Source: Actinomycetota bacterium (GTDB lineage Bacteria; Actinomycetota; Acidimicrobiia; Acidimicrobiales; MedAcidi-G1). From it: a stretch of 52,965 bases of DNA. Made by a program: the position numbers and the translations under genes. How positions within the stretch are numbered: position 1 is the first letter of the stretch; each line of letters begins with the position of its first letter. Where the stretch lies: contig PBLL01000041.1 of the NCBI GenBank assembly GCA_002721755.1, positions 1-52,965 of the forward strand. The letters run 5' to 3'. Positions 4,603 to 7,984 of this stretch are shown here, one piece after another. Under the pieces are notes generated by a model. The model did not search any database and was not told the DNA's origin. It was given only the letters and a program-made list of their open reading frames with translations.

Positions 4603-5847
4603 ATGAACCAACTATCCGACCCGAAAATACCTTTTGGTATCTATGCGTTAATGGTTTCCGCTTTTTTCGCTTCTATGTCGCAAATTGGTCAAATTACAAT
4701 TATTGGAAAACAAGTCTGGGACATGACCGGAAATGAACTCGATTTGGGTCTGATCGGTGTGGCCGAATTTTTACCAGTCGCTTTGTTAGCCCCAATAACT
4801 GGATCAATAGCTGATCGTTTTGACAGAAGGCGCGTACTTGCTATTGCTCTTTTCGGCGAAATAGTTGTTTCAGTTCTTCTTTTTCTCTACATCCGAAATG
4901 ACCCCACATCTTTGAAACCAATTTTTGCATTAATCCTGCTGTTTAGTGTTTTCAGGTCCTTCGCAATGCCAGCCAATCGAGCTCTTCCAATCGATTTAGC
5001 TCCACCTGGAACCATAGAGAGGGTTGTCGCTTTAAAAGCTGTGTCTTTCATGGCGGGAACTGTTGCCGGACCTATTATTTTCAGTTTCCTTTTTGTAGCT
5101 GATATCGCTCTTCCATATTTAACCGCTGCAATAGGACTTGCTATAGGGATAACACTTCTATCGTTGGTTCCCAAACCTCAAGTCGTGCAATACAAACCAA
5201 CTGGAACTAAGCAGGTTATAAAAGATGCTTTTGAAGGCTTACGTTTCATTCGAAGAACTCCGATCCTATTCGGTGCAATAAGCCTTGACCTCTTTGCTGT
5301 ACTTTTCGGCGGTGTTATCGCTTTACTACCTGCTATCGCCGAAGAACGTCTCGGAGTTGGAGCAGTGGGTCTTGGATGGTTGCGTGCATCAGTTGGAATC
5401 GGTGCGGGGATCACAATGCTCTCCCTTTCGTTTAAACCATTGAAGCGCAATGTCGGTAAAAGACTTATCCATATGGTTGGAGTTTTTGGTGTAGCTACCA
5501 TAGCGCTCGCGATGACTCGAAGTTTCGCTATTGCCTTCATCCTTATATTTATCGCTGCATCAGCTGATGCTGTCTCGATGTTTATACGTGCCAGCCTCGT
5601 TCCTCTCGCTACACCAGAACAGATGAGGGGTCGTGTTCTCGCTGTGGAAAGTGTTTTCATAGGTGCATCAAACGAACTGGGAGCTGCAGAATCTGGTGTT
5701 GCAGCAGCATTATTAGGATTGGTGGGAGCGATACTTTTTGGAGGTGTGGGAACTCTTATAGTTGTTATCTTATGGTGGCGGCTTTTCCCTGCGCTTCGTT
5801 CTGTAGATAGATTTGAGGATGTAAGGGCATCTCAAGAAAATATTTAG
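4603..5847 (+). CDS. MFS transporter
   Basis: Multi-helix protein with GSIADRFDRRRVLAIA motif; EntS/TsgA-like organisation. Confidence 0.9.
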   Translation: MNQLSDPKIPFGIYALMVSAFFASMSQIGQITIIGKQVWDMTGNELDLGLIGVAEFLPVALLAPITGSIADRFDRRRVLAIALFGEIVVSVLLFLYIRNDPTSLKPIFALILLFSVFRSFAMPANRALPIDLAPPGTIERVVALKAVSFMAGTVAGPIIFSFLFVADIALPYLTAAIGLAIGITLLSLVPKPQVVQYKPTGTKQVIKDAFEGLRFIRRTPILFGAISLDLFAVLFGGVIALLPAIAEERLGVGAVGLGWLRASVGIGAGITMLSLSFKPLKRNVGKRLIHMVGVFGVATIALAMTRSFAIAFILIFIAASADAVSMFIRASLVPLATPEQMRGRVLAVESVFIGASNELGAAESGVAAALLGLVGAILFGGVGTLIVVILWWRLFPALRSVDRFEDVRASQENI

Positions 5848-5859
5848 TAGAGAGAAAAA

Positions 5860-6918
5860 ATGAACCAAACAGATAAAAAAACTTTGACCGTTCTTTCCGA
5901 TATTACTTCGGAAGTTGAAGTTTTGTGGGAGGAAAGTAAACCTCTTATCAATCAAAACGACATTGAGAAAATCATAGGCTGGGAACTTAAAACAGAAGGA
6001 CTCTGCAAAGGTGAGATATGTGTTCCTTTTGCCTTACCAGTAGATCATGTTGAATCAGATTTTGTCGACCTTTTGACAATCACGGAAACACTCGGCTTTT
6101 CGACTGTTTTAGATTCTGAGTCAGATTTTATTGCAATTGACACTTTCTCCAGTCTTCGCCATTCAGCTCTCTCAGATAAAAAAGCCCCTGACATTAAACT
6201 TCCAGACCTTGATGGAAATTTGCGTTTGCTTTCTGAGTGGAGTGATAAGAAAAAGTTGCTTGTGGCTTTTTCAAGTTGGTGAGGATGTGCTTTTGATCTG
6301 CCAGGTTGGCAGATACTGTTCGAAGATTTAAAAAATGAAAATTTTGTTGTGATAGCAATCGCTATAGATGAAAACGTTGATGCCATTAAAGAATTAGCAA
6401 AAGAAACTACTTACCCTGTTCTTATTGACGCCAACCATCTTTTTAGTGACCTGTATGCCGTAAGCAACGTTCCAACTGTTATTTGGGTTGACGAAAACGA
6501 CACGATTGTGCGGCCGAATGCTGGAGAGTTCGGCACTGATACTTTCTCTGAACTAACTGGAATCTTATGCGCAGATCATATGAACCAAGTCAAAGCATGG
6601 GTAAAAGACGGTGAACTCCCTGAAGACGCCGACTATGTCGTGGAAGACTTCAATATAGATGAAATTAACGCCCGTCTTCATTTTCGGATTGCTGTGAACG
6701 CATTAAGAGGAGGGCTGAGCGAAGTTTCAGAGCACCACTTCGAGAGGGCTGAAGAATTAGCCCCTCTGGATTTCACAATTGCAAGAGCGTCCATGCCTCT
6801 CCGTGGCGGCAATCCTTTTGGAGAGGAGTTCTTTGATCTTTATGAGAGGTATCAAAAAGCCGGATCCCCTTATCATGGGATACCGCGTAGGACAGCAAGA
6901 TTGGGAAAAAATGATTAA
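5860..6918 (+). CDS. Putative selenoprotein: thioredoxin-fold (AhpC/TlpA-like) protein with Sec encoded by UGA at 6280-6282 (SSWUGC)
   Basis: ORFs 5860..6282 and 6349..6918 are in the same frame, separated only by one TGA, and 6283..6348 is open (GCAFDLPGWQILFEDLKNENFV). UGA sits at the redox-active position after beta-strand KKKLLVAFSSW. A SECIS-like hairpin follows. Confidence 0.85.
6296..6314 (+). promoter_or_regulatory. Candidate bacterial SECIS hairpin ATCTGCCA-GGT-TGGCAGAT
   Basis: Perfect 8-bp stem with a GGU loop. Stem begins 13 nt after the UGA and loop 21 nt after it; G in the first loop positions fits bSECIS models. Confidence 0.8.
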
Positions 6919-7984
6919 GAATGTGATTGTTTGGGGAACCGGTAATGTTGGCAGGCTCGCTATAAGGGCTGTCGCCTCCCATGAAGAGTTAAATCTAAGT
7001 GGTGTGATTGTTCATAATGATTCCAAAGTCGGAGTCGATGCTGGGATCATCGCTGGTATAGGTGAATTGGGAGTCATCGCGACTAATGACATTAGAATTG
7101 CAGAATCATCTGATGTAGATGCGGTTGTTTACACAGTTAATTCCGACTTTCGCCCTGACGAATCACTATCTGAGATTCTTCCTGTGCTTAGATCCGGCAC
7201 GAACGTAGTCTCGAGTAGTTTTTATCCTTTGCTCCACCCGCCGTCCACTCCCGAGCCTATGCGTTCTCAAGTTCTTGAAGCATGTGAAGAAGGTGGTTCT
7301 TCTATTTTTGTTTCCGGAATTGATCCGGGCTGGATAATTGATGTGCTTCCTATTTTCTTGGCAAGCATGGGCTCAAACATAACTGAGGTGCGCGCACAGG
7401 AAATTGCCAACTATGCCGGTTACGATCAGCCAGACGCTGTCAGGTTATTGTGCGGTTTCGGGCAACCCATGGAATATGACCCCCCCATCCTCACCGATTG
7501 GGCTCTAATGCAAGTCTGGGCTCCCATGATCAGGGTTTTAGCAGATGGGTTTCAAGTTGAACTAGAAGAAATTATCACTGAAGTTGACAAACGTCCTCTT
7601 GAAAAAGGCATTTTTGTTGAGGGAATGGGTGATTTTGAAACCGGAACTCAAGGTGCTCTTCGTTTTGAGGTTAAAGGAATAGTTAACGGTAAACCTCTTT
7701 TGGTTATAGAGCACGTAACAAGAATTGATGATGACTGTGCCCCCGAATGGCCGAAAAACAGTCCAGAGGGTGGTTTCCATAATGTGATCATCACTGGTGA
7801 TCCGTGTTTGACAGTTTCAGTTCACGGCGAAGACTCTCTCGACCCTGGTGCTGCTTCTGGAGGCAATTTCACTGCAGCAAATCGAATTGTGAATGCAATA
7901 GTCCCTGTTTGCGAAGCTGGCTCTGGAATCATCCACCCACTTGATTTACCAACTAATTTGGGTTCTTCACAAATAAAAAACTAA
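6911..7984 (+). CDS. Dihydrodipicolinate-reductase-like NAD(P)-binding oxidoreductase
   Basis: MIKNVIVWGTGNVGRLAIRAVASHEELNLSGVIVHNDSKVG. The ATG at 6911 overlaps the upstream stop and is a better start than 6779 in the ORF track. Confidence 0.75.
   Translation: MIKNVIVWGTGNVGRLAIRAVASHEELNLSGVIVHNDSKVGVDAGIIAGIGELGVIATNDIRIAESSDVDAVVYTVNSDFRPDESLSEILPVLRSGTNVVSSSFYPLLHPPSTPEPMRSQVLEACEEGGSSIFVSGIDPGWIIDVLPIFLASMGSNITEVRAQEIANYAGYDQPDAVRLLCGFGQPMEYDPPILTDWALMQVWAPMIRVLADGFQVELEEIITEVDKRPLEKGIFVEGMGDFETGTQGALRFEVKGIVNGKPLLVIEHVTRIDDDCAPEWPKNSPEGGFHNVIITGDPCLTVSVHGEDSLDPGAASGGNFTAANRIVNAIVPVCEAGSGIIHPLDLPTNLGSSQIKN

Follow-up and report, generated by a model that had tools for sequence, protein, structure and literature searches.

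The window, that is, the whole stretch of DNA analysed here (52,965 nucleotides), derives from a metagenome-assembled genome (MAG). Mechanical ORF calling placed two ORFs in one part of it, at 5860–6282 and 6349–6918. When TGA was translated as selenocysteine (Sec, U), positions 5860–6918 of the plus strand gave one frame of 352 residues, with its end at a TAA (6916–6918) and with the TGA at 6280–6282 (codon 141, U141) as its sole internal stop. An earlier, sequence-only reading had claimed that the two called genes are one frame broken by a single TGA, and the translation, 352 residues in length, agreed with this. The stretch between the two called ORFs (6283–6348) reads GCAFDLPGWQILFEDLKNENFV. 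The features of the locus are:

4603–5847, plus strand: MFS transporter, the upstream neighbour, which adjoins in all 8 congeneric loci.
5860–6918, plus strand: predicted selenoprotein ORF, 352 aa, with an N-terminal domain (residues 1 to ∼100), a ResA/TlpA-like thioredoxin fold (∼104–234) and a C-terminal helical region (∼237–352).
6004–6021, plus strand: CX4C pair Cys49/Cys54 of the N-terminal domain, both invariant in the set A3.
6280–6282, plus strand: in-frame TGA, U141 of the W-U-G-C motif (TGA in 69 homologues, TGC or TGT in 19).
6283–6288, plus strand: Gly142-Cys143, the latter the putative resolving residue of the UGC site, both invariant in the sets A1 and A3.
6297–6313, plus strand: SECIS-like hairpin (TCTGCC at 6297–6302, loop AGGTT at 6303–6307, GGCAGA at 6308–6313).
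6472–6474, plus strand: Pro205 of N-V-P-T, where the thioredoxin fold has its cis-Pro; it does not vary in A1 or A3.
6911–7984, plus strand: DapB_N-type NAD(P)-binding oxidoreductase, the downstream neighbour, which overlaps the selenoprotein ORF.

The sequence GAGAG located 5′ of the ATG at 5860 is a plausible ribosome-binding site. That the TGA is a true stop and that a second protein is re-initiated at the GTG at 6349, as the two mechanically called ORFs would have it, is so improbable as to be negligible, because no ribosome-binding site was found upstream of this GTG, conservation extends through the 22 residues that separate the ORFs and that include the active-site motif, and in 19 homologues the protein is encoded without a stop, with Cys at the site. 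The two called genes are almost certainly one selenium-containing redox protein in which the apparent stop is read as selenocysteine.

The sequence-only reading had also predicted that homologues would carry Cys or Sec at codon 141. When this codon was read directly across the order, aligned homologues had either TGA (69) or TGC/TGT (19) and no other codon was encountered, exactly as predicted. Within the genus, each of the eight other species had TGA at codon 141 and no further stops, at a protein identity of 72–82%, so that TGA is present in 9 of the 9 members of the genus; these congeneric loci come from marine Acidimicrobiales MAGs and from AG-414-N20, whose record carries no MAG label. 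In the GTDB family of the window every match that covered the site had TGA, and the W/Y-[U/C]-G-C motif was found in 98 of 98 compared sequences. A few homologues had an additional in-frame TAA or TAG (L084 in genome G452, and those of G543 and G793), possibly due to decay or assembly error.

The two sides of the TGA were then compared for selection by the Nei-Gojobori count. Downstream of the TGA, dN was 0.06–0.10 and dS ∼0.7–1.5, while upstream of it dN was 0.14–0.38, indicating that purifying selection is stronger on the 211 codons after the TGA than on the codons before it. The low dN after the TGA means that the part behind the apparent stop is working protein. These data also bear on whether the locus is a pseudogene or a sequencing error, in which a Cys codon (TGC/TGT) was mutated to, or misread as, TGA. 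Although Cys forms with TGC/TGT do exist and the window does derive from a MAG, there is hardly any chance of this: the identical TGA is present in independent assemblies of nine species of the genus, including AG-414-N20, it is found at the same site in many other genera, and dN is well under dS on both sides. Decayed relatives without Cys or Sec at the site, which the sequence-only reading had named as evidence that would speak against it, were not seen in the genus, whose members showed no other decay.

Downstream of the TGA, a stem that begins at the third base of codon 146 closes a 5-nt loop by six pairs, and the second base of the loop is an invariant G. As neither an Rfam scan of the window nor a permissive scan round the UGA gave a match to any SECIS family, we tested the hairpin by comparison. 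In 34 distinct sequences, 98.5% of the stem cells were paired and three stem pairs changed on both sides (i.e. were compensatory). The covariation score was reached by none of 500 shuffles, a count that ignores the relatedness of the sequences and is not a p-value, and slid partners performed far worse. RNAalifold recovered the same six pairs unprompted, and in L050 several pairs were altered in step (GGTCCC/GGGACC). Among further Sec forms all six pairs were present in 39 of 41, compared to 7 of 20 rows with Cys (these 20 include one sequence twice). Single-sequence folds of the 47 nt located 3′ of the UGA differed outside the core stem, and across the alignment the six-pair core alone was conserved. 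The hairpin lies at a peak in the conservation of synonymous sites: synonymous identity was ∼0.84 over the eleven codons that surround and follow the UGA versus 0.63 over the whole gene (a short N-terminal stretch, from few comparisons, was above the UGA region). Furthermore, Leu147 is encoded by CTG throughout the genus, and CTG accounts for only 13% of the Leu codons in these genes. Judged by these comparisons, the predicted hairpin resembles a bacterial SECIS in form.

A complete hairpin was also kept in six Cys forms (L121–L125 and L127), most of whose genomes are without selA. This suggests that the changes from Sec to Cys were recent, or else that protein coding constrains the same bases.

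The source MAG (1.55 Mb, 78% complete) contains selA (389.5 bits, cut-off 267.9), selB (289.3 bits, cut-off 242.25), which adjoins selA on contig C23 of G000, and a tRNA-Sec with the anticodon TCA (64.4 bits, gathering score 47) on contig C6. A search for selD in this incomplete MAG gave no match; the gene was complete in seven of the eight congeners and fragmentary in the eighth. Thus, the sel genes that the sequence-only reading had asked for were recovered in the source genome with the exception of selD. The selD of the genus and of most related genera itself has one in-frame TGA (L026, L027, L029–L031 and L033), and SelD there is therefore probably a selenoprotein as well.

selA was present in 73 of 78 TGA-form genomes versus 4 of 19 Cys-form genomes (Fisher p ∼3e-10); in this comparison the genomes are not phylogenetically independent, three TGA-form genomes rest on below-cut-off fragments, and one Cys-form genome with a 20-bit match only was scored as lacking selA. 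The TGA-form genomes without selA were 69% (G008), 74% (G714), 76% (G729), 93% (G703) and 94% (G075) complete, and the four genomes with both the Cys form and selA were G564 (L124), G736 (L131), G481 (L134) and G693 (L136). G075, the genome with the TGA form L050, belongs to another class; 94% complete and 4% contaminated, it had no detectable selA, which could reflect contamination, a missing contig or decay.

These results also bear on a third explanation, according to which the UGA is decoded as cysteine (Cys-tRNA-Sec), in part or as a rule, or passed by low-level read-through, in a lineage that may lack selenophosphate. The missing selD of the source MAG would be in line with this, as would the relatives that tolerate Cys at the site. 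However, with selD intact in most congeners and the source MAG incomplete, and with the Cys-using relatives having altered the codon itself, we consider such decoding very unlikely.

A reassigned genetic code was rejected as well. Of 45 ORFs checked in the window, 23 have TGA as their stop, which makes it the commonest terminator there, so reassignment does not explain the internal TGA.

Codon exchange, hairpin, selection and the presence of selA, selB and tRNA-Sec all agree with the claim of the sequence-only reading that the locus encodes a selenoprotein, and we are highly confident that the UGA at 6280–6282 is decoded as selenocysteine, as far as can be judged from sequence. SelB together with Sec-tRNA(UCA) would read this UGA, and the hairpin at 6297–6313, putatively recognised by SelB, would direct the insertion of selenocysteine.

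What kind of enzyme might this selenoprotein be? In Pfam, the protein matched Redoxin (PF08534, E 4e-12, residues 106–234) and AhpC-TSA (PF00578, E 1.1e-11). The top Foldseek matches of the predicted fold were ResA (E 5.6e-9), and the phmmer matches among solved structures were ResA, TlpA and DsbE proteins. The AF2 model, from which the C-terminal helices were placed, had a mean pLDDT of 68.9 and a pLDDT <50 at residues 140–145, making the UGC loop unreliable. In the alignment, Sec141 takes the place of the nucleophile, the first Cys of CxxC, and Cys143 that of the second, with one residue fewer between the two sides of the motif. N[VI]P was found, by motif only, in 96 of 98 sequences, and Cys49 and Cys54 were present in all members of the 98-sequence set that had the N-terminus in frame. 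No signal peptide was evident at the N-terminus (MNQTDKKTLTVL...), and the location of the protein is predicted to be cytosolic.

As Sec occupies the nucleophile position of a ResA/TlpA-type CxxC, the protein is more likely to be a thiol-disulfide oxidoreductase than an AhpC-type peroxidase, and such oxidoreductase chemistry is, judged by fold and motif position, probable. The alternative, a selenoprotein that acts as a Sec-dependent, peroxiredoxin-like peroxidase and not as a disulfide oxidoreductase, has a small but real chance of being correct: the best Pfam domain matches are Redoxin and AhpC-TSA, and the family is named Prx-like in the literature (PMC2398784). On the other hand, true Sec-Prx is listed there as TxxU (PMC2398784 Table 2), a pattern that differs from a Sec aligned with the first Cys of a ResA-type CxxC, and the nearest neighbours by structure and by NCBIfam are ResA/TlpA. 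The AhpC/TlpA/thioredoxin-like placement proposed from the sequence alone therefore stands with respect to the thioredoxin fold (Redoxin, AhpC-TSA and ResA matches) and is less likely with respect to an AhpC-type peroxidase. If the protein is a disulfide oxidoreductase, the selenolate of Sec141 would most likely attack a substrate disulfide or an oxidised thiol, and the mixed selenosulfide could then be resolved by Cys143, a role assigned from its position. More speculatively, the Cys49/Cys54 pair may pass electrons to or from the UGC site.

The ATG of the DapB_N-type gene (6911) lies inside the joined ORF, giving an 8-nt overlap with the end of the selenoprotein gene. Seven congeneric loci have the same overlap, and the two genes are probably in the same operon. 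The DapB_N gene also adjoins the selenoprotein gene in L074–L076. Both the DapB_N and the MFS neighbours are kept in the genus and, outside it, in few genomes only; gene order gives little hint to function.

In a protein tree (n=81) the Sec and Cys forms interleave and 8–9 changes between them are needed, of which at least 4–5 are forced by well-supported branches. This repeated exchange, tied to selA within one order, is a natural set for testing the benefit of selenium, and it permits a comparison of UxC and CxC active sites that are otherwise very similar. In the same tree, two proteins from the window's own GTDB family (L077 and L078) group with genes of family f97, which suggests, as a reading of the tree, horizontal transfer. 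A more far-reaching proposal, that these proteins are a separate selenoenzyme family of Acidimicrobiia, which combines the UGC site with the CX4C pair as a second conserved site in an unclassified N-terminal domain, serves a cytosolic redox function of its own, relays electrons within the molecule from Cys49/Cys54 to Sec141, and has switched repeatedly between Sec and Cys as the Sec machinery was lost, is tentative, and we think it rather doubtful.

Finally, we compared the protein with known systems. The Global Ocean Sampling (GOS) study (2008) lists a family 'Prx-like (UGC-containing)' (pfam00578, motif UGC) with 46 Sec and 855 Cys sequences (PMC2398784 Table 2), and a 2026 review lists a 'UGC-containing TlpA disulfide reductase family protein' (cd02966; PMC13188914). 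Compared by description, the GOS family and the present protein are both of the pfam00578 type, contain UGC, occur in aquatic bacteria and have Sec as well as Cys forms; in the present protein PF00578 was matched at E 1.1e-11 and UGC is at residues 141–143, in keeping with the literature family. Because both papers list them, the UGC motif and this kind of protein were already known. Thus, the UxC motif highlighted in the sequence-only reading is indeed there, as U-G-C at 141–143, but it is not new, being found in both papers and in the NCBIfam model NF041054. A literature search yielded no relevant paper that names WAxxUGC or describes selenoproteins of Acidimicrobiia. To this the present analysis adds the taxonomic and genomic context, a clade that the curated model does not cover, and the exchange of Sec and Cys linked to selA.

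The curated model in question, NF041054 (WAxxUGC_long, 'ResA-like WAxxUGC motif-containing protein'), matched the present protein at 180.9 bits (E 4e-53), with a cut-off of 300. Homology between the two extends through the N-terminal domain and the thioredoxin fold, and they have in common the UGC site, the CX4C pair (also present in the rows of the NF041054 clade) and the position of the hairpin. They differ in the motif, which is WAxxUGC in the model and AFSSWUGC, without WA, in the present protein; furthermore, the present clade has a shorter C-terminal region, is separated from NF041054 by a long internal branch and includes 19 Cys forms. All members of A3 (20 of 20) matched the NF041054 model at some score, whereas in an order-wide search with the A3 profile the present clade scored at least 308 bits and the next sequences at most 213. 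In the tree, the sampled NF041054 members formed one clade and the present proteins a separate, well-supported sister clade. Five genomes contain both clades: G153 (L042), G670 (L116), G703 (L113), G652 (L143) and G590 (L144), the second protein in each being a lower-scoring WAxxUGC_long-like TGA protein. In automated gene calls such proteins end up split or truncated, and the whole clade escapes the curated NCBI model; a model made from the gathered sequences would allow annotation pipelines to call them correctly.

ResA, TlpA and DsbE (CcmG) proteins are membrane-anchored or periplasmic. They share with the present protein the thioredoxin fold and the position of the redox residues, but while they have CxxC, the present protein has UxC, which is one residue shorter, and unlike them it has extra N- and C-terminal regions and no evident signal peptide.
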